Part shown: positions 226-19,079 of the stretch, one piece after another
Layout of the letters: each line of letters opens with the position of its first letter
Position numbering within the stretch: position 1 is the stretch's first letter
Origin: a virus
Virus record (IMG/VR): IMGVR_UViG_3300017762_000105
Coordinates: 1-20,679 of that record
Strand: one strand, 5' to 3'
DNA: 20,679 nucleotides
Made by a program: the position numbers and the translations under genes
Notes under the pieces: generated by a model
Databases searched by the model: none
The model's input: the letters and a program-made list of their open reading frames with translations, nothing else
What the model was told of the DNA's origin: nothing

Positions 226-626
226 AGCACTGCACCACGATCAGGATGACAATACATCTTTTTAGCTTTTATACTGGTTACTTGCTTGTCAGAGGCATAT
301 ACAGCCCCTTCCATGCCATCTAACGCTGCCTTTACTATATTGTCTAAGTCAGGTTTTGTTGTGTGCTGTAGAGCGCCATATTCAGCCTCCATGCGTTTTA
401 CGTTAGACCATGACTTAGGTATTTCCATGAACGCTATTATTTCTACTGACACAAAACGCTCTGTCATATCTAGCTTCATGTTCTGCATTGCTTTCCAAGC
501 TGCTGCTTGAATACGGCTTTCATATTCCCTAGTTTTATCTGGCGTGTAAGCTTTGCCTGTTCTGGTGAACCTAGGTCTGCCCTTGCCTTGTGGTTGACCT
601 GATACCTCAATTTCTACTTTGTACAC
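189..626 (-). CDS. rusA: RusA-family Holliday-junction resolvase
   Basis: A 145-residue protein of normal RusA length. RusA proteins are homodimeric, metal-dependent endonucleases that resolve four-way junctions during phage recombination and before packaging. Seen here: the N-terminal GQPQGKGRPRFT stretch (residues 10-21), and the catalytic signature KPDLDNIVKAALDG (91-104) followed by YASDKQV (110-116). The acidic residues D93, D95 and D113 align with the three catalytic aspartates of E. coli RusA. The start is GTG at 626. An in-frame TGA lies a few codons upstream, so no earlier start is possible, and an AGG sits 9-10 nt before the GTG. A sigma70-like promoter lies directly upstream (656-684). 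It is the only minus-strand gene in the first 2.6 kb, and its end overlaps the Ref-like gene. Confidence 0.93.
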   Translation of the reverse strand: MYKVEIEVSGQPQGKGRPRFTRTGKAYTPDKTREYESRIQAAAWKAMQNMKLDMTERFVSVEIIAFMEIPKSWSNVKRMEAEYGALQHTTKPDLDNIVKAALDGMEGAVYASDKQVTSIKAKKMYCHPDRGAVLYMSVSWTNPGE

Positions 627-655
627 TGCTTTAACCTGTCAATTGATTTTTATTA

Positions 656-684
656 TTTATAGTTTTTATCAAATTTTTTTTCAA
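656..684 (-). promoter_or_regulatory. Sigma70-like promoter for the rusA gene
   Basis: On the minus strand a TTGAAA (complement of 679-684) and a TATAAA (complement of 656-661) are separated by exactly 17 bases. Each box is one mismatch from consensus, and the spacer is extremely A/T-rich. The predicted start of transcription is about 20-25 bases ahead of the GTG at 626, giving a short leader. Caution: the region is so AT-rich that chance matches are more likely than usual. Confidence 0.5.
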
Positions 685-712
685 TCTTGTTAAATTAATT
701 GTAAATAAGGTG

Positions 713-747
713 TTGACAAGTCTCATATCTGATACTATGTATATAAT
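713..747 (+). promoter_or_regulatory. Candidate promoter of the early plus-strand cassette
   Basis: A perfect TTGACA is at 713-718. At the ideal 17-bp distance lies TATGTA (736-741), a weak -10 box. A perfect TATAAT is at 742-747, but 23 bp away. The nearest downstream start codon is at 769, with AGAGG at 756-760 as ribosome binding site, so the position suits a promoter for the eight-gene plus-strand cassette. It is divergent from the rusA promoter, about 30 bp away. Which -10 is used cannot be decided by eye. Confidence 0.42.
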
Positions 748-768
748 ATAAACAAAGAGGTACAAAAA

Positions 769-1086
769 ATGTGTAAACCAATGACAAAAGAAGAAAGACA
801 AGCGTCAATAACGCGCGAAAAAATTAATCATAGTTGGGCAATGATGAAACCACATTACCAACATATACCAGTAGAGTATCGTGGCTTTGAATTTGTATTA
901 GAGGTTTATTACTCTTTTACAGAAAGCCAATACAGCGACGAACTACAGGGTTGTAGTGCAGACTTTGATGTTTGTGACTTGCACCACCCAGAAAGAGCTA
1001 GACCTATCTCAGCGCGGCTCTCCAAGGCTCTTATAGCCGAATACCACAACAGTATCCATGAACAGTTAGTAGAGGAGCATATATAA
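769..1086 (+). CDS. Hypothetical early protein, 105 aa
   Basis: First gene of the plus-strand cassette, started by ATG at 769 with AGAGG 8 bases ahead and a candidate promoter just upstream. The N-terminal third is charged (MTKEERQASITREKI). The middle holds an aromatic stretch (YRGFEFVLEVYYSF, about residues 37-50) followed by CSADFDVCDLHHPERARP (about 62-79) with two Cys and two His. A small metal site is conceivable, but the spacing matches no finger I can name. The C-terminal part looks helical. No signal peptide or membrane segment. Its TAA shares an A with the ATG of the next gene (TAATG), so translation is probably coupled. I do not recognise the family; phage early genes of this kind often act on the host. 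Confidence 0.75.
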   Translation: MCKPMTKEERQASITREKINHSWAMMKPHYQHIPVEYRGFEFVLEVYYSFTESQYSDELQGCSADFDVCDLHHPERARPISARLSKALIAEYHNSIHEQLVEEHI

Positions 1087-1295
1087 TGCGTGTTAAATTA
1101 GACATTATGGAACAAGAAGAAATGGCATGGTCTGCGTTTGCTGACACACTGCCAACTTGTGAGACATTAGGTGATGCACAAGAAAAAGCACACAAGCTAA
1201 TGAAAGAACGCAACTTAGAAGAATACATAGAAGAAAACATCATTGACGAAACAGTAACCGAATACTGGAACGAAAGATGGAGTAAATACATATGA
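1086..1295 (+). CDS. Hypothetical acidic early protein, 69 aa
   Basis: Small, strongly acidic, probably all-helical protein (MRVKLDIMEQEEMAWSAF at the start; EEYIEENIIDETV near residues 45-57). The start ATG overlaps the previous stop (TAATG at 1084-1088) and its own TGA overlaps the next ATG (ATGA at 1292-1295), placing it in one translationally coupled string. No membrane segment, cysteine cluster or known DNA-binding motif is visible. Function unknown. The coding call rests on the tight overlaps at both ends and the lack of any competing frame. Confidence 0.68.
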   Translation: MRVKLDIMEQEEMAWSAFADTLPTCETLGDAQEKAHKLMKERNLEEYIEENIIDETVTEYWNERWSKYI

Positions 1296-1384
1296 GCAAG
1301 CAAGAAAGATGGATAGCGTTTTTCTGGGCTGTAATGCTTGGATTAGCAGTCATTAATATAGATACATTTTTTGTGGTGCAATAA
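1292..1384 (+). CDS. Tiny single-span membrane peptide, 30 aa
   Basis: A 31-codon frame from ATG at 1292 to TAA at 1382-1384. It starts in an ATGA overlap with the preceding gene and ends in a TAATG overlap with the next, filling exactly the space between two confident neighbours. The peptide has a short polar start (MSKQER) followed by one hydrophobic stretch (about residues 7-29, WIAFFWAVMLGLAVINIDTF), long enough to cross the inner membrane once. Tiny membrane proteins of this type are frequent in phage early regions and often target host membrane complexes. No function can be assigned. The gene is below usual length cut-offs and would be missed by automatic annotation. Confidence 0.62.
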   Translation: MSKQERWIAFFWAVMLGLAVINIDTFFVVQ

Positions 1385-1581
1385 TGGAAACCTGGAACGA
1401 AATAAATGAAAGACATAGGCGTGAACGGCTTGACCTAGTAGCGCAATTCTCAAAAGAAACTACGCAAACAGAAGCAGCAAAAAAGCTAGATATGTCTTTG
1501 CAAGCCCTTAATAACTTTGTGCATAGAAACAACATACATTGGAGCATTATCAAACAAGGCATTAGAAATGAAAAAACTTAA
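1384..1581 (+). CDS. Small helix-turn-helix protein, 65 aa
   Basis: Residues about 27-53 (TQTEAAKKLDMSLQALNNFV and on through HRNNIHW) have the layout of a helix-turn-helix: a first helix with the AA.KL pattern, a turn at D-M-S, and a recognition helix (LQALNNFVHRN). Residues 1-24 are a charged helix (NEINERHRRERLDLVAQF). The protein probably binds DNA and could control the divergent promoters at 656-747, but that role is inferred from position only. It starts in a TAATG overlap with the tiny membrane peptide, and its end overlaps the next gene by 14 bases. Many phages carry similar short HTH proteins of the resolvase/Hin-recognition type without a catalytic domain. Confidence 0.72.
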   Translation: METWNEINERHRRERLDLVAQFSKETTQTEAAKKLDMSLQALNNFVHRNNIHWSIIKQGIRNEKT

Positions 1582-1750
1582 TTACGGACAAGAACAGGAG
1601 CTTAAATATTTTAAACAACAAGAAGCTAAATGGTCTGAGGAAAGGTATAGAAATGACCATGATAAAAACGCTTGGAATAATTATGAATTAGCAAAAACAG
1701 AGTTAAAACTGTTTGTAAGTAAATTGAGGAAAGAAGGTTACAACATATGA
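1568..1750 (+). CDS. Hypothetical charged helical protein, 60 aa
   Basis: Starts at ATG 1568, inside the last 14 bases of the HTH gene. An earlier in-frame ATG at 1517 would overlap that gene by 65 bases and is less likely. The protein is highly charged and probably one long helix or coiled coil (QEQELKYFKQQEAKWSEERY, then LAKTELKLFVSKLRKEGY). It ends in an ATGA overlap with the next gene. No known family is recognised. The coding call rests on the overlap pattern and composition. Confidence 0.62.
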   Translation: MKKLNYGQEQELKYFKQQEAKWSEERYRNDHDKNAWNNYELAKTELKLFVSKLRKEGYNI

Positions 1751-1926
1751 ATTATATAGAGGCATTTAAAAGTAAATTTCAAAGATTACCAACAGAAAAA
1801 GAAATAGGTTTCCTAATGGTAGCAGTAGCAGAAGAAGAACAGATGAACCCACAAACAAGAGCAAATCGTTTTATGAGAAATGGGTTTGTTGCAACTACAT
1901 ACCAGGAGTGTCGTGGGGAAGATTAG
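1747..1926 (+). CDS. Hypothetical protein, 59 aa
   Basis: Frame from ATG at 1747 (ATGA overlap with the preceding stop) to TAG at 1924-1926. The protein begins MNYIEAFKSKFQRLPTEKEI and continues with a short helical part and an Arg/Gln-rich end. It may be a small helical adaptor, but no family is recognised. Its stop codon lies in the loop of a strong hairpin (1914-1939). It is the last gene before the only real gap in the plus-strand cassette. Confidence 0.6.
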   Translation: MNYIEAFKSKFQRLPTEKEIGFLMVAVAEEEQMNPQTRANRFMRNGFVATTYQECRGED

Positions 1927-1939
1927 GAGCACTTCCCCA
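1914..1939 (+). promoter_or_regulatory. Strong 8-bp hairpin at the end of the 59-aa gene
   Basis: TGGGGAAG (1914-1921) pairs perfectly with CTTCCCCA (1932-1939) around a 10-base loop that contains the TAG stop and an AGGAG. It is followed by A6, not a U-tract, on the plus strand, and it lacks a downstream U-tract on the minus strand too, so it is not a classical terminator. It occupies the only intergenic gap in this cassette. An RNA-processing or mRNA-stability role is possible. Confidence 0.5.
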
Positions 1940-1974
1940 AAAAATTAATACAAAACCAATGAGGAAAAAACAAT

Positions 1975-2457
1975 ATGAAATACGATATTAAATTTACAGA
2001 GTATGAAAGTATCGCAGATTTTTGTGATTATCATGAAATTAAAAGATGCCCATACCACAGGGGATATAATGGATCATTTGTATATGTTATGTGCCTTGAT
2101 TTATTATTAGATGGGTCATCAATTGTTCCATTATATGTAGGATGCACAAGCAATATAAATACTAGAATTTTAGATCATTCTACCAAAGCATGGTTTCAAT
2201 ATGTTGATTTTATTATGATTGAGCAATTTCATGATAGGCGTGAAGCTGAAAAAACCGAAAGCGATATGATAACACGAACACGCCCTGTTTTTAATAAACA
2301 AGTAGCAAAAAGAAAAAAGAAAAAAAAATATATACCAAAATTAGCAATGGTTAAAAATGTAAAAACTTTAATGTATGATGAAAATTTTAATGGTGACGAT
2401 GCATATCATTGGGTTACTGAGGAACTACCGTACATACAGCCGATTGGATTACAATAA
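1975..2457 (+). CDS. GIY-YIG family nuclease
   Basis: A 160-residue protein with a GIY-YIG catalytic fold in its first two thirds. The first strand reads FVYVM (residues 35-39) and the second PLYVGCTSN (52-60, with Y54-V-G56 as the YIG element). R64 and H68 follow in NINTRILDH, and the metal-binding Glu is most likely E95 in TESDMITRTRPVFN, whose N107 ends the usual motif. GIY-YIG enzymes cut DNA with one metal ion. Residues 111-118 are a run of Arg/Lys, and the C-terminal ~40 residues are of unknown type. A clear ribosome site (GAGGA, 1961-1965) supports the start. It is free-standing, not inside another gene, so a homing endonuclease, a repair enzyme or a host-DNA nuclease are all open. The end overlaps the next start (TAATG). 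Confidence 0.78.
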   Translation: MKYDIKFTEYESIADFCDYHEIKRCPYHRGYNGSFVYVMCLDLLLDGSSIVPLYVGCTSNINTRILDHSTKAWFQYVDFIMIEQFHDRREAEKTESDMITRTRPVFNKQVAKRKKKKKYIPKLAMVKNVKTLMYDENFNGDDAYHWVTEELPYIQPIGLQ

Positions 2458-2669
2458 TGCTAAAATACTTCACATTTATGGTATTAACTTATTTTATCCA
2501 AGGCGAACAAACAACGCATAACATAGTATTTCCATCATATGACGCTTGTAGCCATTCTAAGGCCGCTATGTACGCCATAATGGAATATCAGCACGATGAT
2601 GTACTAATTTACTGTAAGGGTACTCAGGTGGCTTCTAATACGCTTGTAAAGCCTATGCCTAGACCTTAA
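2457..2669 (+). CDS. Small putatively exported protein with two Cys, 70 aa
   Basis: The N-terminus (MLKYFTFMVLTYFIQGEQ) has one Lys followed by a hydrophobic core (about residues 4-14), which looks like a signal peptide or a membrane anchor. The rest is small and polar, with cysteines C31 and C53 that could form a disulfide in the periplasm. No lipobox is seen, so it is not an obvious outer-membrane spanin. The spacing (FPSYD..C...A...//..C) resembles the 53-aa minus-strand protein at 4393-4554. It begins in a TAATG overlap with the GIY-YIG gene and ends tail-to-tail with the endolysin, the two stop codons sharing TTAA. Confidence 0.62.
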   Translation: MLKYFTFMVLTYFIQGEQTTHNIVFPSYDACSHSKAAMYAIMEYQHDDVLIYCKGTQVASNTLVKPMPRP

Positions 2670-3274
2670 CTAAGCCATTTATATATTTTCATGGTTTCTT
2701 CTTGGCGGTGCTTTAATCCATTGTAACCGCCATTTACTCTTTTTGTCAGAGCCTTAACGCTTTCTGATGATGGAGAAACATCGCACATATCCCAAAGCTT
2801 GTTACGCTTAAAAAACCATATGGCACTTTCCATAGGATAATCTGTTGCAACCAGGTCTGGGTCTTTCATTACTTCTGGCAGGTTCATATCATTGGCAAAC
2901 ATGGCATAATTTTCTTTAAAAGTGCATTGTAAAAATCCGCGTCCTCGCCATAAATAACCCTGACCCATATTACCGTATCTGTGTCCGTAAACCCTATCAG
3001 CAAGCGCCTGTGGGTTTCTAGCGCACGTTTCAGCTTCACTTTCGCTGTCAAAATATTTACCGAAAACTTTAAGAATAGATGCTGTAGAATAATTAAGGTT
3101 TTCTTCTGTGTAACGAAATGTACCACTTTCATGCACTAACTGCCCTAGAAAGTGCGCTCCGCGCTCTGGGTTTAACGTGTAGTGATTGCAGATAGCCTTT
3201 GCCGTATTAGGCCCAAAACTACCATCAGCACTTGAGCCTATTTTAACCTGAAGTTTTTTTAATGCTTCACTCAT
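2666..3274 (-). CDS. GH19 chitinase-like endolysin
   Basis: A 202-residue lysin that should cleave peptidoglycan at the end of infection. Residues 8-28 (LQVKIGSSADGSFGPNTAKA) look like a shortened peptidoglycan-binding repeat. The GH19 lysozyme/chitinase domain follows: QLVHESGTFRYTEENLNYS (45-63) with the probable acid E49 and base E58, then YGHRYGNMGQGYLWRGRGFL (96-115) and the substrate-loop motif NGGYNG (181-186). There is no signal peptide, so release depends on the holin upstream. The ATG at 3274 is chosen because it starts exactly at the family-like N-terminus and overlaps the preceding gene by 8 bases. A longer frame from 3376 would bury 100 bases of that gene. Confidence 0.92.
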   Translation of the reverse strand: MSEALKKLQVKIGSSADGSFGPNTAKAICNHYTLNPERGAHFLGQLVHESGTFRYTEENLNYSTASILKVFGKYFDSESEAETCARNPQALADRVYGHRYGNMGQGYLWRGRGFLQCTFKENYAMFANDMNLPEVMKDPDLVATDYPMESAIWFFKRNKLWDMCDVSPSSESVKALTKRVNGGYNGLKHRQEETMKIYKWLS

Positions 3275-3527
3275 TAACAAATTCCTTTGTTCCACATAAT
3301 CGTTCGTAAACCATATCGGTTGTATATGCTTCTGCCCACTTGTTTTCTGTGAATGTACAGAACGTCCACAAGTCATTTACATCATCATTCAATATATCAA
3401 TTATATCTTGTTGTGCAGATGTTTGGCCTTGTAGATGCTCAATGTCATGCACCAGCCCAGAAATATACCACACCAATGCAACCAATTGAACGATCATTGC
3501 AAAGGCTAATGAAATGTTTATCTTCAT
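3267..3527 (-). CDS. i-spanin-like small membrane protein, 86 aa
   Basis: One N-terminal membrane span (about residues 5-25, SLAFAMIVQLVALVWYISGL) is followed by a periplasm-sized domain with a short coiled-coil-like stretch (about 27-52, HDIEHLQGQTSAQQDIIDIL). This N-in, C-out layout directly between holin and endolysin is typical of Rz-type inner-membrane spanins, which help disrupt the outer membrane after lysin action. No partner lipoprotein gene could be found in another frame. The start is in an ATGA overlap with the holin stop (3524-3527), and the end overlaps the lysin by 8 bases. The spanin role is inferred from topology and position, not from sequence family. Confidence 0.6.
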   Translation of the reverse strand: MKINISLAFAMIVQLVALVWYISGLVHDIEHLQGQTSAQQDIIDILNDDVNDLWTFCTFTENKWAEAYTTDMVYERLCGTKEFVNE

Positions 3528-3982
3528 TTTTTTACACCATAGTATTTACTTACGGCTCTATTACCAAACCAAAAAGACATTATTGCAGCGAATAAACCTT
3601 GTGTCTCTGGCGTCCACATTAACGGTATAGCATCTTGCCAGTTGCCACCTTCATTGATAACTTTCATCATCACAACTACTTGTACGGCAACGAAAAGACC
3701 AAAAAAAGCATAAGTAATAACAGGACGTACACTACCTCGTAGTGCGTTAACAAACCCTCCAGCGTCAATAGCGTCATGCTTATATAACCCCTCAGTTTCT
3801 TTTATCTCTGCTTGTTTATCTATGATGTTAAGCTTTAATTCATTTCGCTTTGTCATCATGTCCATTTCAACACTCATACGCTCCAAGGTATGTTTATGAT
3901 CCTGACTAGCTTTGAAATAATTTAAAACTTCTGGCAAAAACGATGTACCAAAGCCTAAAAGACTACCTAACAGTGTCATCAT
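3524..3982 (-). CDS. Holin, 3TM gene-transfer-agent type
   Basis: A 152-residue membrane protein matching the 3TM holin family first described in alphaproteobacterial gene transfer agents. An N-terminal hydrophobic helix (MMTLLGSLLGFGTSFLPEVL) is followed by a charged linker predicted helical (about 25-65). Then comes the signature SVRPVITYAFFGLFVAVQVV (84-103) and a last span ending FWFGNRAVSKYYG. Holins form lesions in the inner membrane that let the endolysin out. The ATG at 3982 is preferred. It is preceded by GGGAGGGAAG at proper distance, and a longer frame from 4060 would add 26 residues that overlap the upstream gene. The start lies in the last 20 bases of the EF-hand gene. Confidence 0.82.
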   Translation of the reverse strand: MMTLLGSLLGFGTSFLPEVLNYFKASQDHKHTLERMSVEMDMMTKRNELKLNIIDKQAEIKETEGLYKHDAIDAGGFVNALRGSVRPVITYAFFGLFVAVQVVVMMKVINEGGNWQDAIPLMWTPETQGLFAAIMSFWFGNRAVSKYYGVKK

Positions 3983-4286
3983 TTTTCTTCCCTCCCATGT
4001 TAGAAAAACCAAAGTAGGCTGATGTAATACCAGCCACAGCAACAACATAAACAGCCGCAATATCTGCTAATAATTCTGCTGCTTGTGACAAGCCAAAATA
4101 TGATGCAATGACAATTAAAAACGGATATCCCAACATTCCTGACAAGCTATACCAGCACATTTTTAGCTGTGCGTCTCTTTTGGCATCAGCATCATCTATG
4201 CGTCTTTTGCGATCATCCAGCAATAGAGCCTTTTCATCAGGGTCTATTGTGCCATTGTTATTTAAATCATAGTTGTCTTTATTCAT
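3963..4286 (-). CDS. EF-hand loop membrane protein, 107 aa
   Basis: Residues 7-18 (DLNNNGTIDPDE) form a canonical 12-residue EF-hand calcium loop, with ligands at D7, N9, N11, T13, D15 and E18, and Gly and Ile at the conserved positions. A charged helix follows (20-40, rich in Asp/Lys/Arg), then two hydrophobic spans (about 48-66 and 70-93) and a short basic tail. Only one loop is present, whereas calcium sensors usually pair them. It lies immediately before the holin, so a role in controlling or assisting lysis is plausible but not shown. Start ATGA overlaps the small frame at 4283-4396. Confidence 0.72.
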   Translation of the reverse strand: MNKDNYDLNNNGTIDPDEKALLLDDRKRRIDDADAKRDAQLKMCWYSLSGMLGYPFLIVIASYFGLSQAAELLADIAAVYVVAVAGITSAYFGFSNMGGKKNDDTVR

Positions 4287-4396
4287 TTTTTCGCCCTAGC
4301 ATATGCAATTGCTATTCTTTTTTCTCGTGTAATTATAACAACTTTTCCTAATTTGTCATATATTATGTATTTATTGCGAAATTCTCTAAGTGTCAC
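4283..4396 (-). CDS. Tiny basic protein, 37 aa, GTG start
   Basis: A 38-codon frame from GTG at 4396 to TGA at 4283-4285. Both ends are overlaps: GTGA with the stop of the preceding gene and ATGA with the next gene, so the frame fits exactly in the operon. The peptide (VTLREFRNKYIIYDKLGKVV, then IITREKRIAIAYARAKK) is strongly basic and has an alternating pattern suggesting a small beta sheet followed by a helix. No family is recognised. The GTG start and very short length keep confidence moderate. Confidence 0.5.
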   Translation of the reverse strand: MTLREFRNKYIIYDKLGKVVIITREKRIAIAYARAKK

Positions 4397-4554
4397 AACT
4401 CTATTTTAATACATACCACTTTTGCTTTATCGCTTGTGACAAGAACTTTAGCGTCTTCTTTAGCAATCTCACACACCTCTTGTTTGGTGTAGCTTCCAAC
4501 ATGATAGTGTTCAAATCCACCTGTTGATAATTGCACCCAAAGTAAAACCCACAT
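4393..4554 (-). CDS. Small two-Cys protein with hydrophobic N-terminus, 53 aa
   Basis: Frame from ATG at 4554 to TGA at 4393-4395. The start shares its A with the stop of the 159-aa gene (TAATG), and the end overlaps the following GTG. The N-terminus (MWVLLWVQLSTGG) is a short hydrophobic stretch. The rest (HYHVGSYTKQEVCEIAKEDA to VVCIK) has cysteines C28 and C48 at a spacing like the 70-aa protein at 2457-2669. It may be exported or membrane-attached with a disulfide. No function can be named. It is too short for common gene finders. Confidence 0.6.
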   Translation of the reverse strand: MWVLLWVQLSTGGFEHYHVGSYTKQEVCEIAKEDAKVLVTSDKAKVVCIKIEL

Positions 4555-5033
4555 TACCAGCGCCCTTGCTTGCTTCCCCAGAAATAAAATAACCCAAATA
4601 ATATAGCTGCACCAACACCAAATATTATTGCACCTATTGCAAAGTTAATTACACTATCAATTTGTTGTTGTTTTCTATATACTTCGTCTCTGCGTTTTTT
4701 TCGCATTTGAGCCTCTATTGCTAATAATTCTTCGTATCCAGATTTTCCGTAGTGCCAGGTAATTAGCTCTTTCATTTCAAGACGCATCCCCTCTAAACGT
4801 TTTTTTTGAGCAAAAATTTCTAAAGCATTTTCTTCATCTGAACCTTTAAAAGTTTTTTTCCAGAAGGGTGGGTTAAGTTCTCTTTGCTCACAATTATTAA
4901 AATCTGAGAAAGCTTTTCCCCATTCATTAAGCTGCCCTGCACAGTCGGCTAAATCACGCCCTGCACTTACAGTTGCCTTAATTGCTTTAAATGCGCCAGT
5001 GGCAAGACCTACACAGCTTATAGGGTCTAGCAT
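4554..5033 (-). CDS. Phage membrane protein, 159 aa
   Basis: Starts MLDPISCVGLATGAFKAIKA, a glycine-rich helical segment seen at the start of a protein family common in marine tailed phages but of unknown role. Residues 53-115 form a long charged helical region (ALEIFAQKKRLEGMRLEMKE; AQMRKKRRDEVYRKQQQ). A single hydrophobic span at about 128-152 (INFAIGAIIFGVGAAILFGL) near the C-terminus would anchor it. Such proteins sit next to lysis genes. A role in lysis timing or as a virion membrane protein are both conceivable. It overlaps both neighbours by one base (TAATG at 5033 and at 4554). Confidence 0.72.
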   Translation of the reverse strand: MLDPISCVGLATGAFKAIKATVSAGRDLADCAGQLNEWGKAFSDFNNCEQRELNPPFWKKTFKGSDEENALEIFAQKKRLEGMRLEMKELITWHYGKSGYEELLAIEAQMRKKRRDEVYRKQQQIDSVINFAIGAIIFGVGAAILFGLFYFWGSKQGRW

Positions 5034-5203
5034 TAGACCTTAGTAAGAATAGAAACCAACATTATGATCATCGCGCCAGCACTACCAAGAATAACCATTT
5101 CCACCCTTTGTATTCTTGCCATCATTTGTTTCCAGCGTTCATCAAGTTGAGTTTCCACTTTTACTACCCTCTTATCTAAAGATGCTAATGTTGGTTTATT
5201 CAT
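5033..5203 (-). CDS. XhlA-like coiled-coil/tail-anchored protein, 56 aa
   Basis: Frame from ATG at 5203 to TAA at 5033-5035. Residues about 5-34 are a heptad-like helix (TLASLDKRVVKVETQLDERW KQMMARIQRVE), followed by one hydrophobic span (35-53) and a Lys-Val end. This helix-then-C-terminal-span layout is that of XhlA-type proteins, which work with holins in cell lysis. The start is one base after the TGA of the gene before, and the end overlaps the next ATG. Its family membership is judged by layout only, since such short sequences carry little signal. Confidence 0.62.
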   Translation of the reverse strand: MNKPTLASLDKRVVKVETQLDERWKQMMARIQRVEMVILGSAGAMIIMLVSILTKV

Positions 5204-5204
5204 A

Positions 5205-5489
5205 TCAATATCCGTTTGCTACTAATTTAGAAAAATCGCCACTCATAAGTTTCTTTTTAACGTATGCTTGAAACTCTTGCGATCCTATATTTGCACCACA
5301 TTCTTTAGCCCACATTTCAGCAACAACAAAAGGTATAGAACCAGCTAAACGCATTTCGCTGTTACGGTTGTGACCGTCTATATTTCGCTCTTTGTTGAAA
5401 TCTAATATGCGCTGTACGTCCTGAGAACGCTTTATAATAAGCTTACCATCTTCTGTGTGGTAAGAGGTATTTAATATGTTTTGGCTCAT
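5205..5489 (-). CDS. Conserved phage protein after the capsid gene, 94 aa
   Basis: A 94-residue protein starting MSQNILNTSYHTEDGKLIIK. ATG 5489 is chosen because it overlaps the preceding stop (ATGA) whereas an upstream in-frame start would run into that gene. The first half contains SQDVQRILDFNKERNIDGHN, the second a helical stretch (SIPFVVAEMWAKECG) and a basic-aromatic end (FQAYVKKKLMSGDFSKLV). Proteins of this shape follow the capsid gene in several marine podovirus-like phages, with unknown role. A small head-completion or capsid-associated protein is the best guess from position. No membrane segment is seen. Confidence 0.68.
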   Translation of the reverse strand: MSQNILNTSYHTEDGKLIIKRSQDVQRILDFNKERNIDGHNRNSEMRLAGSIPFVVAEMWAKECGANIGSQEFQAYVKKKLMSGDFSKLVANGY

Positions 5490-5728
5490 TCTGGTGCTTC
5501 TCCACCTTCCCACGCTTCATTTACGTCAGGGGTGCTAGGATCGTCTGCCATTAACTGCCCTTTATCGTTTCGCGCTCGTTTAGGTTTTTCATCAGATGTA
5601 ACTTCTTCTGCAAATCCATTTTCAATAAAAGTTGCAGCGTCTTCTGCGCTTACTTCTACAATGTCACCCATGTTTTTAGGTTCATCATCAAGAAATGGTT
5701 GCCTATCTGTTGTAATTTTTATTTTCAT
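5486..5728 (-). CDS. Small acidic head-region protein, 80 aa
   Basis: Begins MKIKITTDRQPFLDDEPKNM and contains the segment GDIVEVSAEDAATFIENGFA (about residues 21-40). This is a pattern found in short phage proteins located just after the capsid gene. The C-terminal half is acidic and Pro/Gly-rich, probably disordered. The start at 5728 has GGAG seven bases ahead; an ATG at 5740 lacks such a site. A head-decoration or connector role would fit the position but is inferred. A GC-rich hairpin lies between this gene and the capsid gene, which could set its expression relative to capsid. Confidence 0.7.
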   Translation of the reverse strand: MKIKITTDRQPFLDDEPKNMGDIVEVSAEDAATFIENGFAEEVTSDEKPKRARNDKGQLMADDPSTPDVNEAWEGGEAPE

Positions 5729-5747
5729 ACAAAACTCCATTGGTAGA

Positions 5748-5763
5748 GGGGCATTACTGCCCC
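5748..5763 (-). promoter_or_regulatory. GC-rich hairpin with GUAA loop after the capsid gene
   Basis: In the minus-strand RNA, GGGGCA and UGCCCC pair perfectly around the four-base loop GUAA, a member of the stable GNRA tetraloop class. It lies between the capsid stop codon (5772-5774) and the ribosome site of the next gene. No U-run follows directly, so it is more likely an mRNA-stability or partial-attenuation element than a full terminator. Confidence 0.5.
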
Positions 5764-5771
5764 CCTTAATA

Positions 5772-6764
5772 TTATGATGCGTTTACATCTGCAACGACAC
5801 CATGTGCCTTTTGAGAAGTAACCTGTAAGCCATATTCACAGCTTATTAATCGACGCTCTGACAGACCTGTTTTCGCTAATGGCTCTTGCTTCGCTGTTTG
5901 TAAATAAGCAACTTCCGCAAAGCTAGGATCAAGAACAAAAACGTCTGGTGTATAATCTACACTAGACACCGTTCTTACACGCATATGGCGGTTTGGAACG
6001 ATTTGTAGCTCACCAAAATCACCAATATAAACGTCAATAGCAGCATTTAATTTGCTATCTTCAGCTTCTTTAAAACGTGTTGCGTTACCTGTAAAAGCAG
6101 ATATTTTTTGCTTTTGTGCAGAACCACACATAACTACTGACGGCTGTGCGCCACTATCCCAACAACCTTTAATAACATCTTTTAACAATGTTTCAGTTAA
6201 TGGTCTTAGAGTACCATCAGTTGCTGCTGCGTTTACAGAACCACTTTCACCTGATCCAGATGTAGTACCGTTAGCACCACCAGAGCCACGCGAAACGTTT
6301 GCAGTCAAGTAAGCTGGTAGCCCTGCTGTTTGTCTAGCAGTACCAGATGAACCAGCAGCCGCTGCTACGTTACTTAGCAACATAGCTTCCATGTCTCTTT
6401 TTAATTCAGAGAGTTTGTAAGCTACTTGCTTTGCAACAGTTTGTGCATTTGCCACACCATTTACAGCTTGGTTGGTTGAAGATACTTCTACAACTTTAGC
6501 TGAAATCTGTGTGTAACCACCTTTACGAACAGCGTTAGTTGGTGCTGTGTTAGATAGTCCTACATCACCCTCTATCTGCCTGTTTGCGCCAGTAGCCGCC
6601 AAATCCACTTCACTCCACTCAAAGTAGGTGTTGTCAACGTTGCGTGATCCAATTGTAGACATAAAAATAGTCTCAGTTGGGGTTATAGAAGCCATAGCTT
6701 CGCTTAAATCCTCACGGATTGTTGAGACATCATACGTCTCGTTTGTATTTGCTGTAACAGCCAT
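5772..6764 (-). CDS. Major capsid protein, SU10 family
   Basis: A 330-residue capsid protein matching the SU10-type major capsid family (HK97 fold). The N-terminal signature REDLSEAMASITPTETIFMS (residues 17-36) followed by YFEWSEVDLA (about 47-56) is typical: these lines set the start of the capsid domain. A Gly/Ser/Ala/Thr-rich stretch (about 137-185) is probably an exposed loop or surface insertion. The C-terminal part holds the conserved DVYIGDFGELQIVPNR and DVFVLDP elements. It is preceded by a strong AAGGA ribosome site (complement of 6773-6777) and followed by a stable hairpin, consistent with high expression. It lies directly downstream of the scaffold gene, as in other phages. Confidence 0.92.
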   Translation of the reverse strand: MAVTANTNETYDVSTIREDLSEAMASITPTETIFMSTIGSRNVDNTYFEWSEVDLAATGANRQIEGDVGLSNTAPTNAVRKGGYTQISAKVVEVSSTNQAVNGVANAQTVAKQVAYKLSELKRDMEAMLLSNVAAAAGSSGTARQTAGLPAYLTANVSRGSGGANGTTSGSGESGSVNAAATDGTLRPLTETLLKDVIKGCWDSGAQPSVVMCGSAQKQKISAFTGNATRFKEAEDSKLNAAIDVYIGDFGELQIVPNRHMRVRTVSSVDYTPDVFVLDPSFAEVAYLQTAKQEPLAKTGLSERRLISCEYGLQVTSQKAHGVVADVNAS

Positions 6765-15052: not shown

Positions 15053-15402
15053 CAATAACTAGCTAACGCTACCCTTTTCCAAATTGCTGTAGAACCATCG
15101 TGTGATCCAGTACAGATATAAATATAGTTCGTATCCCATGAAATCATCCCTGCCACATCACCACTTGAACCTACACTTGATGGCGGTGTTGCTTGCTTTG
15201 TTGCAAGTTGTCTAAATGCATTATCATGCGAAACCACTGCGTATTTATTTGTAGTATCCCATAAAATAATACCATCTTCTGATGGGTTATCATCTGCTGT
15301 TTTAAAATATAAACGTGGTAATTGCCTACGCAAATAGGCAGTCAGGTTATTACCCCATGCAGCAATGTTATCGCCAATCGGTGGTAATACTGGTGCAGCC
15401 AT
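15052..15402 (-). CDS. Putative tail/virion protein, 116 aa
   Basis: The protein has two related beta units: GIILWDTTNKYAVVSHDNAF (about residues 44-63) and GMISWDTNYIYICTGSHDGS (about 85-104), both of the form G-x-I-x-WDT-x-x-Y. The second, ending in IWKRVAL, is a short module also seen in marine phage fibre proteins. The first 40 residues (MAAPVLPPIGDNIAAWGNNL, RRQLPRLYF) form a helical start. It follows the nozzle-like gene with a one-base overlap (TAATG at 15402) and is coupled to the GNAT-like gene. A small tail-attached protein seems likely, but no family name can be given with certainty. Confidence 0.65.
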   Translation of the reverse strand: MAAPVLPPIGDNIAAWGNNLTAYLRRQLPRLYFKTADDNPSEDGIILWDTTNKYAVVSHDNAFRQLATKQATPPSSVGSSGDVAGMISWDTNYIYICTGSHDGSTAIWKRVALASY

Positions 15403-17213
15403 TATCTACTACCTCCCGATTTTGCATCAATTCTCATTGTTCCTACACGCCATGCAGCATACGGAGTGTCTCCATCTACACGCATACGAATTTGTCTACC
15501 AGAAAACCTTACAGACGTTGGATTAGTTGGGGTAAATGGCCCATGCGTACTTTCTGTAGCATTTGGATAAAATCTGCTTTTGAAACTTAGATTTACATCA
15601 CCTTGTGTTTTTTCATCAGGAATAAGATTAGTTACTTGCATGATTTTTTCACCGTTGCCGATACTTACAGGGCCAGTTTCCGCAAAAATACTATCAGCAG
15701 CGACTACAGAAATTGTATTACCCATGCCGTTACCATGTACAGTGCAGTAATATTTTAAAGACGCTGGCGCATTATCTGGCACTACAAAAGTAGTTTTTGC
15801 CCCACTATTGCCTGGTGTGCCTGTTGCAGTAACTCCCGATGTAAAAGAAGTATCATCTGAATTTTTAAATGCTATGGGATGGTTAGCATTACTATTATCG
15901 CTTTGATCAAAAATATAAGTATACCCTTTTTTCAACGTTAATGTTGGATAATTACTGGCGTCTAATATAAATTTATTACCGCCATCAACATTTGCTACCG
16001 TAACAGTGATTGTTTGCTTATCAAAATAAGATAAACCAACTTCGTGATCATACATCGCACCATCGAAACCCATTAACATAGGATAGGTAAATACACCTCT
16101 TGAAGTACCAGAAGTTCTTGACAAATTGCCAATTAACCAATGATTTTCTTTATAATCTAATGCAACATAGCGATCTATTTCGTTTGAACCACCAGAACAA
16201 TAAAACCACCATATTTCACCAAATTGTCCATTTGTAAAAGCCCATGTTTTGCTTTTTTGTGCAGTGTTCATATCGCCAAAAACGTAATCATGCACATCAC
16301 ATGGAATTTCTGACACGACATTTCCATCAAATCTAAAAAATGCACCGTTTCCCATCCAGAATACACCCATGTCAACATCTGCTGCTGCCATGCGTGAAAT
16401 AATACCTGAAGATGAACCTACTCTTTCAAACCCAAAAACATAAGGTGGGCCTATATAACGTGCAGTGTGGGCATCTATATCTGTAATAATTAATGTTTGC
16501 CCTCTTGTCCTTATTGCAGTTTGGATTTGACCTGATGTTTGCAATTCTATATCGCCAGCTTCATTTGTGGATAACGCAGACCATTGAGTATTATTTTCTC
16601 TATCGCACCAAGCAACTTTTCGTGGATTACCACCACTTCCTAGTGCAAAAATAAAACGCTCTTCAGTAACAATTAAACCTAAATTATTTGTTGGTGCGTT
16701 TGCAATTGCAGCAGCTTTTACACTTGTTCCTAGCTGCCACTCTAAAAGCCTACCATCTGTAGTTGAGCAAGCGACTAAGTATTCACCCCAGTTATCTATT
16801 GACCAGGTTGTAGCTTCTACCAAGTTACCAGTGTCTGGACGAGGTGTTCCATAAGTTCCAACGCCATAAAAGCCATAGCCGTACCCTATATTTACAGCAG
16901 CACTTTCTGTACCAGCAACTAGATCCGTAGGCGCTATATCATAAACAGTACCACCTGATAATGCAGCTTTTAATTCGTTAAAAGAACCTGCTGCCACATA
17001 CCTTGCGCCAGCGTTACTTTCCCATGTGTGCATACCTCTAGGGGCATTTGTTGTAATACTTGCTATATTTTCATTAGTTCGCCACCCACCTACTGGCCTA
17101 AGTGACCCATCGCGCCAACGCACTAATGATCCTTCACGCCACCGTCCAGAAGCGTCCAAATCTGTTCCTGTTTGATAAAAACCTGCTGGAATTTTAAGTG
17201 GTATAATTGCCAT
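15402..17213 (-). CDS. Tail nozzle-like protein with an inserted cupredoxin-like domain
   Basis: A 603-residue protein. The N-terminus (GRWREGSLVRWRDGSLRPVG, residues 23-42) and the following beta-rich body (residues 43-395, with FGEIWWFYCSGGSNEIDRYV) match a tail protein common in marine podovirus-like phages and placed at the tail tube or nozzle. The C-terminal part (about 508-590) holds IFAETGPVSIGNGEKIMQVT, IPDEKTQGDVNLSFKSRFYP and the family-type end SVRFSGRQIRMRV. Between them, residues 400-505 form a beta domain that interrupts this body and carries H445, C490, H493 and M497, the ligands of type-1 copper proteins. The end overlaps the 116-aa gene by one base. The nozzle role is inferred from family resemblance and position before the ejection genes. 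Confidence 0.75.
   Translation of the reverse strand: MAIIPLKIPAGFYQTGTDLDASGRWREGSLVRWRDGSLRPVGGWRTNENIASITTNAPRGMHTWESNAGARYVAAGSFNELKAALSGGTVYDIAPTDLVAGTESAAVNIGYGYGFYGVGTYGTPRPDTGNLVEATTWSIDNWGEYLVACSTTDGRLLEWQLGTSVKAAAIANAPTNNLGLIVTEERFIFALGSGGNPRKVAWCDRENNTQWSALSTNEAGDIELQTSGQIQTAIRTRGQTLIITDIDAHTARYIGPPYVFGFERVGSSSGIISRMAAADVDMGVFWMGNGAFFRFDGNVVSEIPCDVHDYVFGDMNTAQKSKTWAFTNGQFGEIWWFYCSGGSNEIDRYVALDYKENHWLIGNLSRTSGTSRGVFTYPMLMGFDGAMYDHEVGLSYFDKQTITVTVANVDGGNKFILDASNYPTLTLKKGYTYIFDQSDNSNANHPIAFKNSDDTSFTSGVTATGTPGNSGAKTTFVVPDNAPASLKYYCTVHGNGMGNTISVVAADSIFAETGPVSIGNGEKIMQVTNLIPDEKTQGDVNLSFKSRFYPNATESTHGPFTPTNPTSVRFSGRQIRMRVDGDTPYAAWRVGTMRIDAKSGGSR
15699..16016 (-). other. Cupredoxin-like domain within the nozzle-like protein
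   Basis: Codons 400-505. The domain has alternating strands (TITVTVANVD, TLTLKKGYTYIFDQSD), the His motif NHPIAFK (H445), a Gly/Thr-rich loop, TTFVVPDNAP, and the closing motif YYCTVHGNGMG. Four residues at cupredoxin-like positions, H445, C490, H493 and M497, form a His/Cys-x2-His-x3-Met set. Plastocyanin has Cys-x2-His-x4-Met; amicyanin has x2. The order (distant His first, then Cys-His-Met) is that of blue copper proteins. Marine phage fibre proteins contain related short modules ending YYC-x-x-H-x-G-M-G. Whether copper binds cannot be told from sequence. Confidence 0.7.
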
Positions 17214-17217
17214 TATT

Positions 17218-17634
17218 TTACTCTGGTTTTGTAGGCCATGAAATAGTATTTGGAAAGCCTGATTGCTGTGGCACGTTTAATAAGTCTGTACGGTACTGTG
17301 ACCACTCAGTTTGTTTTTCTGACGCCATATCTGCCCAACGTAGTGGGTTGGATACGATGCTATCTACTTCTGACTTCAATAAGTGATCTCGCATCATTCT
17401 TACTTCGCTTGCTACTTGTGCATCTAACTCTGCTTGCGTTGGCGCAGTGTATGCAACAAAATCCGATCCGATTAAAGATAACAAATCGTCATTATTTACA
17501 GTCATATCAGTATCAGTCATATCAAGTGTGTAAGGTATCCATCCAAAATCTGGGTGATTTATTTCGACATCAATACGGCTATTATCTAATTCTAAAGACG
17601 TTGCGTTTCTATATTCTGTAATTGGTATACTCAT
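17218..17634 (-). CDS. Tail assembly chaperone-like protein, 138 aa
   Basis: The C-terminal third (RDHLLKSEVDSIVSNPLRW, then WSQYRTDLLNVPQQSGFP, NTISWPTKP; residues about 82-137) matches the short family of phage tail-assembly chaperones with the R-x-x-LL...W-x-x-YR-x-x-L...P-x-Q...FP...WP-x-x-P pattern. The N-terminal half is a beta-rich head (MSIPITEYRNATSLELDNSR). Such proteins help assemble or fold tail fibres in tailed phages. It lies between a fibre gene and the nozzle-like gene, with a TAATG overlap at 17634 and a four-base gap before the nozzle-like gene. Confidence 0.8.
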   Translation of the reverse strand: MSIPITEYRNATSLELDNSRIDVEINHPDFGWIPYTLDMTDTDMTVNNDDLLSLIGSDFVAYTAPTQAELDAQVASEVRMMRDHLLKSEVDSIVSNPLRWADMASEKQTEWSQYRTDLLNVPQQSGFPNTISWPTKPE

Positions 17635-18482
17635 TATGAAATCCTTAAAAATAAACCTGATGCTGCCCTAACTGACTGATTATCTGCATTTGACATAGCT
17701 CTCCAAGTTCCACTAGGAATAGAGCCATTGATAGATGCGGCTGTGTCATCGCTGTAAGTGGTTGTTGAAAGAAACCCAGAATATTTTAACACAGAGCCAT
17801 TTACATAGGTATTCCCTGCAACGATAGTTGATTGTGTTGAAAAACCTAAAAAGGCGTAAGTTCCTACTGCGCCTAAAGCCAACCCTGCTGTTGCAGACCC
17901 AACTTGCGCTGAACTTGGTGCAGGGGCAGAGGTTAAGTAACCTGCTTGTCCGTGATCGCCCCACCCATAAGCAGTGTTCCAGTTTGATTGGCTAGACGTA
18001 GTTGGGATGCTGTAATTACTGGCTAGTGAGATTGCAAGTGTGCCTGTTGTCGTAACAGGTGAGCCACTAACACTTAATCCAGTTGGTACACTAAGACCAA
18101 CGCTTGTAACTGAGCCAGATCCAGCAGAGGCATTAATGTACGTCTTTATGTCTGAGAGCGCCACCTGCTTCATCGTGCCATCATCGTTAAATACAACGCG
18201 ATCTGCATCTACAACAGTTGTTGACGTAGCACTTGTATTACCATCCAATATATTAATTTCTGCTGTGGTAACAGTTGCGCCATCTAATTTATTTAATTCT
18301 GCTGCTGTTGAAGTAACCGCAACACCGCCAACCTGGAATGAGGTCATATTTGGTGTTGTTGCATTTGTACCGTCTGCGTTGTTGTTTACTTCTGTAACAA
18401 TGGCATCTAACGCTGCATTGGTGACACCACCCCATGTATCTTCATTTGATCCCACTGTTGCTTTTGTTATTGTTAAAGCCAT
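17634..18482 (-). CDS. Tail fibre protein with marine-phage fibre repeats
   Basis: A 282-residue beta-rich fibre protein. It opens with a connector-like helix (WGGVTNAALDAIVTEVNNNA, about residues 17-36), then two related repeats TAAELNKLDGATV and TAEINILDGN (about 59-82), a module found in many marine phage fibres. VTSVGLSVPTGLSVSGSPVT (125-144) and GWGDHGQAGYLTS (about 171-183) are further common fibre modules. The C-terminal 90 residues (GNTYVNGSVLKYSGFLSTTT; ending ASGLFLRIS) lack a known motif and may form a tip. A strong AGGAG precedes the ATG at 18482. It is coupled to the chaperone gene by TAATG. Confidence 0.82.
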   Translation of the reverse strand: MALTITKATVGSNEDTWGGVTNAALDAIVTEVNNNADGTNATTPNMTSFQVGGVAVTSTAAELNKLDGATVTTAEINILDGNTSATSTTVVDADRVVFNDDGTMKQVALSDIKTYINASAGSGSVTSVGLSVPTGLSVSGSPVTTTGTLAISLASNYSIPTTSSQSNWNTAYGWGDHGQAGYLTSAPAPSSAQVGSATAGLALGAVGTYAFLGFSTQSTIVAGNTYVNGSVLKYSGFLSTTTYSDDTAASINGSIPSGTWRAMSNADNQSVRAASGLFLRIS

Positions 18483-18494
18483 ATACTTTCTCCT

Positions 18495-19079
18495 TTATGC
18501 CGCTTGTGTCCAAGTATCATTGGCAGTAGAAACTTCTGTCCATGTCTTGGCTGTAATTGTTATTTTATCCCATGTAAATCTAACATTAGAGGCTGGCACA
18601 CAAGATATATTTGCTGCTGTTATATTATGCTCTTGTGTTAATATTGGAACATCTAATGCTGTTGCAGCTTCAATATTATTTGCTACAAAGTTGTGTGCTT
18701 CTGTAATGCTTGGCGTATCAATAGTAACAGTAGTTGTAATACTGTTAATTGGGAACAATTCTTGTACAATTGGTGCGCCAACAGATGTTGTAGCAGTAAT
18801 CCCATCAGCAACAAAACTATATACAAATTGGATATGCGGAACGCCAACCGATGTATTCAATTCTATGTTTGGTATAGAAAAGTTTTCTTCTTCTTGCATT
18901 GCAAGAGATCCAAAAACTACATTTGACGATAAATTATTTGCCGTTAAATTGTGTGTTTGAGTAATATTTACTTGAGAAATTACACTTGTTGCTGTAAAAT
19001 TCGTAATTTGAAAAGTAAAGCTAACAATACCTGTATCATCAGCTACTGGCGCTACAGCTAAAGGTGAAAATCCAAACAT
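18495..19079 (-). CDS. Tail protein with six ~22-residue tandem repeats
   Basis: The 194-residue protein contains six consecutive units of 20-22 residues at 23-152, each a variant of F-x-x-x-x-I-x-x-x-x-x-x-x-x-P-x-I-x-x-x-H-N (for example FVADGITATTSVGAPIVQEL and FVANNIEAATALDVPILTQE). Short beta-strand repeats with this Gly/Pro beat are known in several phage structural proteins with no known role. The N-terminal 20 residues (MFGFSPLAVAPVADDTGIVS) and the C-terminal Trp-rich end (TWDKITITAKTWTEVSTAND) differ. Location among fibre genes suggests a fibre shaft or decoration. AAGGC lies ahead of the start. Confidence 0.75.
   Translation of the reverse strand: MFGFSPLAVAPVADDTGIVSFTFQITNFTATSVISQVNITQTHNLTANNLSSNVVFGSLAMQEEENFSIPNIELNTSVGVPHIQFVYSFVADGITATTSVGAPIVQELFPINSITTTVTIDTPSITEAHNFVANNIEAATALDVPILTQEHNITAANISCVPASNVRFTWDKITITAKTWTEVSTANDTWTQAA
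18624..19013 (-). repeat. Coding tandem repeat, six units of about 66 bases
   Basis: Codons 23-152 of the tail protein encode six head-to-tail units: five of 22 codons and one (the fifth) of 20. Units are diverged at DNA level, so this is an old repeat kept at protein level, not a recent expansion. A seventh unit begins (ITAANISC) but breaks off. Confidence 0.72.

Follow-up and report, generated by a model that had tools for sequence, protein, structure and literature searches.

The tail nozzle of the short-tailed phage SU10 is a hexamer of a β-propeller protein that carries four Ig-like domains inserted between the propeller blades, and ejection moves the domains of this nozzle (PMC9509320). 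Tailed phages also possess Ig-like and further decoration domains, mobile β-sandwich modules which occur on unrelated virion proteins and are absent from close relatives of their carriers. A metal has also been placed in phage tails, in the form of the iron 'Ferrojan' or Trojan horse idea, which concerns the HxH sites of T4 gp37-type fibres, where the paired histidines of trimeric fibres are proposed to hold iron (PMC11705849). Furthermore, plastocyanin-family genes occur in marine phages, where the cyanophage petE gene encodes a free photosynthesis protein (PMC3037559).

The window analysed here comprises 20,679 nucleotides (positions 1 to 20,679 of IMG/VR virus record IMGVR_UViG_3300017762_000105) and represents a 20.7 kb phage fragment with a portal and capsid of the SU10 type (PF23899; e-value: 3e-173, and PF17236; e-value: 1.6e-83). 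The annotated virus closest to it is Octadecabacter Antarctic DB virus 2, the nozzle protein of which shares 54% identity and is free of the domain considered below. In contrast to the SU10 nozzle with its Ig-like domains (PMC9509320), the nozzle of the window has a cupredoxin-type insertion, a module that differs from the Ig-like decoration domains in its fold and in its invariant set of metal ligands. It resembles the HxH iron sites in that a metal is envisaged in the tail of a phage in a marine setting, while differing from them in being a folded, type-1-copper-like domain (PMC11705849), and it differs from the petE product in forming part of a virion protein (PMC3037559). The reading that we favour, to which we assign a probability of about 0.55 as a whole, is that the domain is a genuine, metal-loaded cupredoxin that acts as an accessory host-contact module on the nozzle. 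In a literature search from which most subscription papers were absent, no report of cupredoxin modules in phage tails was encountered, and a prior mention is possible. Cupredoxins, nozzles and decoration modules are each known in their own right, whereas, as far as can be told, neither their combination nor the marine-wide family, nor the fact that it is shared with bacterial lipobox proteins, has been described.

The tail nozzle protein and its inserted domain

A 603 amino acid tail nozzle protein of the P22 gp10/SU10 gp17/T7 gp12 β-propeller type is encoded on the minus strand (positions 15402-17213). The PHROG 3287 profile spans amino acids 4-603 (e-value: 2.7e-77), and comparison of the AlphaFold (AF2) model against cryo-EM nozzle structures with Foldseek identified the nozzle of Pa223 (e-value: 3.2e-22), as well as those of VP1, SU10 and Pam1, P22 gp10 and T7 gp12. 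The likeness to the nozzles of Pa223, VP1, SU10, P22 and T7 extends over the whole 603 amino acid body. The full-length profile and fold matches place the protein among the podophage tail nozzles, and the label 'tail nozzle-like', which it had received in a preceding sequence-only reading, was correct. The full-length model is of moderate confidence (pLDDT: 73.5), and the exact location of the domain on the nozzle is therefore not claimed.

The inserted cupredoxin-type domain covers amino acids 400-505, which correspond exactly to positions 15699-16016 (minus strand); the coordinates, reading frame and residue numbers given in the sequence-only reading are all exact. The insertion was surveyed in the 80 closest IMG/VR relatives of the nozzle protein, among which L001-L044 (598-608 amino acids where complete) and L051 (734 amino acids) bear the domain, while the other aligned relatives are 499-506 amino acids in length and lack it. 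In the 499 amino acid relatives, which are 80-87% identical to the window protein, precisely this segment is missing as a block, with an empty site that reads DHEVGLSY-AVSGTEQS-VFAESG as compared to DHEVGLSY-(domain)-DSIFAETG in the window. The same empty site is found in 20 more distant relatives. With PHROG 3287 matching on both sides, the split tail protein body previously inferred is thus real. The segment is a removable module that occupies a loop towards the end of the nozzle β-propeller, and its insertion site is marked by the segment MYDHEVGLSY (amino acids 387-396; positions 16026-16055, minus strand), which the domain follows in the window. In the wider nozzle family the domain is missing from most relatives, and it is therefore dispensable for nozzle function.

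The AlphaFold model of the domain, based on an alignment of 74 sequences (pLDDT: 95.3; pTM: 0.88), was compared against known structures using Foldseek and VIA-align. All of the best 50 PDB matches belong to cupredoxins, to multicopper oxidases or to proteins composed of cupredoxin domains. The top match is the N-terminal cupredoxin of the Hyphomicrobium nitrite reductase (2dv6; e-value: 1.5e-5; Z: 9.9; rmsd: 3.0; 105 amino acids), with further matches to rusticyanin, small laccases and plastocyanin. Membership of the cupredoxin fold, a Greek-key β-sandwich like that of plastocyanin and azurin, is met in the predicted model, as the sequence-only reading had anticipated.

The link to the classical cupredoxins of family PF00127, such as plastocyanin, pseudoazurin, amicyanin, rusticyanin and the N-terminal domain of the three-domain Hyphomicrobium nitrite reductase, consists of the shared predicted fold, the ligand order and the single cysteine. 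The classical members are free electron carriers, whereas the phage domain is embedded in virion proteins. The latter also has an H-x3-M loop, lies below detection by the family profile and has proline after the first histidine, where asparagine is usual in classical cupredoxins. Neither the window protein nor its domain reached the PF00127 cut-off, and hhalign comparison against nine classical cellular cupredoxins gave only a weak match (probability: 17%; e-value: 0.0015). The 99.6% probability obtained between alignment A2, which contains 74 domains below 75% identity, and alignment A5 is partly circular, as A5 includes two members of the same family. The proline, the weak direct profile match, the failure of the window domain to reach PF00127 and the absence of the domain from most of the wider nozzle family count against the favoured reading. 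Two bacterial relatives do exceed the PF00127 cut-off of 21.2 bits (L544/L597: 24.5 bits; L604: 24.0 bits), and the phage profile finds the bacterial proteins L544 and L555 at e-values of 3e-23 to 3e-25. The family is therefore tied to plastocyanin and azurin through these bridging marine bacterial proteins, direct comparison being too weak. Judged from the predicted model and sequence comparison, the domain is a member of an undescribed, mainly marine cupredoxin family.

Distribution in marine phages and bacteria

Relatives of the domain were gathered by four single-sequence scans. With tblastn, it was located in 323 phage records of one collection, nearly all of them marine cyanophages (Synechococcus, Prochlorococcus), together with Pelagibacter and Methylophilales phages. 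The phage carriers include T4-type gp9 connectors, baseplate wedge proteins, tail fibres and other virion proteins, some of which contain tandem copies, while a few combine the domain with LamG, collagen or endosialidase-chaperone domains. At least two further, apparently propeller-type tail proteins bear the domain (L142 and L156). The profile of the window's nozzle family does not detect them, and their identity as nozzles is a reading of the sequence alone. With its absence as a block from close relatives and its presence in unrelated virion proteins, the domain qualifies as a mobile virion decoration module. Cultured phages are also among the carriers, namely S-SSM4 (gp9) and Mosig, Melnitz and Baldr (fibres), which makes laboratory testing possible.

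A search for the motif YYYCxxHxGMG in genomes from 84,980 species yielded 110 stretches, 80 of which were retrieved and derive, by their titles, overwhelmingly from marine lineages. One Pelagibacter match (L538) represents a fibre of the phage type, the N-terminus of which is that of T7 fibres. Many of the matches in SAR86, SAR92, K189A and Woeseiaceae carry a lipobox followed by a run of glycines (approximately 22/79, using a simple pattern). In these lipobox proteins (e.g. L501, L520, L544, L498, L509) the domain is C-terminal, and some also contain cadherin repeats. The genomic neighbourhoods of these bacterial proteins revealed no copper-related genes. The suggestion that similar modules exist in marine phage fibres was right and understated, given that baseplate, nozzle-like and bacterial lipobox proteins carry them as well.

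The presence of the same domain on lipobox proteins of marine bacteria, so that cells may have partners for it, and the precedent of the iron-based idea for HxH-bearing tail fibres (PMC11705849) lend some support to a copper 'Trojan horse', whereby the metal would act as bait and the tail would mimic a metal-loaded protein or chelate for a host outer-membrane receptor. This appears unlikely, however, since no receptor has been identified and hosts as different as Synechococcus, Prochlorococcus, Pelagibacter and Methylophilales make a single receptor improbable. Moreover, the copper of type-1 sites is normally partly shielded.

Conservation of the proposed ligand residues

The four proposed ligands, His445 (CAT; positions 15879-15881), Cys490 (TGC; 15744-15746), His493 (CAT; 15735-15737) and Met497 (ATG; 15723-15725), all encoded on the minus strand, occur in cupredoxin order, which verifies the ligand set previously put forward and supplies its exact codon positions. 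Amino acids 401-503 contain one cysteine, two histidines and one methionine, so that every cysteine, histidine and methionine of this stretch is a proposed ligand. The claim of cupredoxin spacing holds in that the loop is within the known range, with the nuance that C-x2-H-x3-M falls between amicyanin and plastocyanin, in which the histidine and methionine are separated by two and four residues, respectively. Among the representative domains, x2 is found in 57/89 and x3 in 27/89. The order of the ligands and a loop spacing of C-x2-H-x2/3-M are those of a type-1 copper site, as judged from sequence alone. The domain does not qualify as an HxH iron site, since its only two histidines lie 48 residues apart.

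In the 74 domains of A2, the sole invariant columns are F435, H445, C490, H493 and M497, and the variability among homologues that would have refuted the proposal is therefore absent. Of the representatives, 88/89 retain His445 and all 89 have methionine at the aligned column of Met497, while Cys490 is the single cysteine in 86/89 domains, which excludes a disulfide. Ligand codons vary while the amino acids remain constant, with TGT (54) and TGC (33) for cysteine, CAT (62) and CAC (25) for His493, and CAT (52) and CAC (35) for the other ligand histidine. When 55 otherwise unrelated full-length carriers were aligned (mean column identity: 8%), the ligands were among seven invariant columns. As a guard against circularity, a profile was built from the columns preceding the cysteine loop and is thus blind to the Cys-His-Met residues; it retrieved 207 distinct domains, 204 of which have C-x2-H-x(1-5)-M downstream. 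The three exceptions are L311, with a two-residue insertion in the loop, and the degenerate second copies of L087 and L088. In the reverse direction, the first histidine is kept in 81/83 bacterial and archaeal sequences picked by the Cys-His-Met motif alone. The conservation of the ligand set is far above chance.

These data bear on the alternative that the domain is a metal-free, rigid adhesion module, a borrowed cupredoxin fold in which the ligands are mere structural relics. Such a role would be in keeping with the Ig-like domains that decorate phage proteins, of which four are inserted in the SU10 nozzle (PMC9509320), and with the lectin, collagen or chaperone domains held by a few carriers. 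It is nevertheless rather improbable, as conservation among domains of below 75% identity peaks at the four chemically exact ligands, amid surroundings that vary strongly. Loss of the Cys-His-Met loop is possible but rare: the degenerate copies that lack it (L087, positions 6310-6522; L088, positions 6301-6537) are each accompanied by an intact copy within one and the same protein of a cyanophage. To return to the favoured cupredoxin reading, it is very likely that the His-Cys-His-Met site binds some metal, which is an inference made without metal or ligand-distance data, and probable that this metal is copper in a type-1 centre, again inferred in the absence of metal data.

Insertion sites, exchange and possible role of the domain

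The domain has entered nozzle proteins at more than one site. In L026-L044, which are about 63-65% identical to the window protein, it is located on the opposite side of the DHEVGL segment, preceding rather than following it, while a third site is represented by the L358 nozzle, with a copy after about profile position 172. The L358 protein (positions 463-3594), which was found with another query, is a single nozzle with two cupredoxin domains, the second in the same region as that of the window. A different insertion can be observed in the 734 amino acid nozzle of L051 (positions 4001-6202), which, besides the cupredoxin domain, has an extra segment of ~120 amino acids near residue 170, close to the third site and reminiscent of carbohydrate-binding modules.

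The domain also moves between neighbouring genes and between closely related phages. Downstream of a fibre-like protein gene (positions 17634-18482, minus strand; phrog_9729, weak; e-value: 0.0026), whose product has a C-terminal part that diverges between otherwise near-identical phages, lies a tail fibre assembly chaperone gene (positions 17218-17634, minus strand; PF16778; e-value: 5.6e-13; phrog_4628), in the block that diverges with the fibre tip. A further gene encodes a repeat fibre-like protein (positions 18495-19079, minus strand). The homologue of this protein in L058 bears the cupredoxin domain, its adjoining nozzle being without one, while in L012 the domain is present in both the nozzle and the fibre-like protein. 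Against L001-L003, in which the nozzle is otherwise near-identical, the domain differs at 52/255 nucleotides (20%), as compared to 14-15/1554 (0.9%) for the rest of the nozzle gene. Most of the stretch below 18,550 that was compared with the IMG/VR phage L002 is 94-100% identical. Identity falls below 90% only in the cupredoxin domain (15,748-15,948), in the block formed by the fibre tip and the chaperone (17,348-17,950) and, above 18,550, in the fibre genes. The domain has hence been exchanged between near-identical phages in the manner of fibre tips. This resemblance is a correlation and no proof of receptor binding.

A role in virion stability or assembly, with copper rigidifying the nozzle or switching it between assembled and ejecting states, can be argued from the position of the insertion after the propeller part and from the shift of SU10 nozzle domains on ejection (PMC9509320). 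It is improbable nonetheless, given that relatives at 80-87% identity manage without the domain and others bear it in a fibre instead, and that insertion on either side of a single short segment is difficult to reconcile with a mechanical function that is conserved. Redox activity at the cell surface, for instance electron exchange with respiratory or periplasmic proteins of the host, accords with type-1 copper proteins being electron carriers but is very improbable, as no redox partner domain or catalytic copper site is present and the module resides on adhesion-type proteins in phages of unrelated hosts. Adhesion is preferred over stability and redox activity mainly because the domain is swapped like a receptor-binding tip and has variable neighbours around invariant ligands.

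The comparative evidence, all of it drawn from sequences, thus favours host contact, while copper binding itself is an inference. We consider accessory host contact to have an even chance of being the actual role, its function being inferred and untested. Computed support for the favoured cupredoxin reading comes from the predicted fold, the insertion, the invariance of the ligands, the mobility and the swapping. The metal would probably be picked up after lysis, given the reducing conditions of the cytoplasm in which the nozzle is assembled, and if the nozzle is hexameric, as inferred from that of SU10 (PMC9509320), six metal-loaded domains would be displayed around the tail tip. The invariant metal site may set and stabilise the binding face, with the varying residues of the neighbouring loops providing the fit to different cell-surface partners.

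These data suggest that metal-loaded tail parts may be a widespread and unstudied means of contacting host cells. Should copper occupy the site, the virions of a widespread class of marine phages would be copper proteins by design. Were the reading true, a metal cofactor would be added to the phage adhesion toolkit and the iron Trojan horse idea would gain a concrete, testable counterpart. It would furthermore account for a 'tail fiber protein' module that has no assigned function in databases, and connect phages with the lipobox proteins of SAR86, SAR92 and their relatives. A broader proposition remains speculative and is on balance doubtful, namely that marine phages and marine bacteria have in common a family of cupredoxins displayed at the surface, that copper-loaded copies on nozzles, baseplates and fibres are swapped between strains in the way of receptor-binding tips, that copper-dependent contact with the cell surface is a general but unrecognised step in marine phage adsorption and that virions constitute a reservoir of protein-bound copper in seawater.

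As regards the fragment itself, a chimera or assembly artefact could be ruled out, as the same 603 amino acid architecture occurs in many contigs of other samples. A plasmid search returned no match. A match to the Pfam family Fim1C-like_C (e-value: 0.01, under the cut-off) and PDB sequence matches to nsp1 and SUMO constructs were regarded as due to chance. Elsewhere in the window, a 236 amino acid protein (positions 2666-3376) is a likely endolysin, with a weak match to GH19 chitinases just under the Pfam cut-off (e-value: 1.3e-4), while a GIY-YIG nuclease-like open reading frame (positions 1975-2457) is located on the plus strand, against the direction of most genes of the window.
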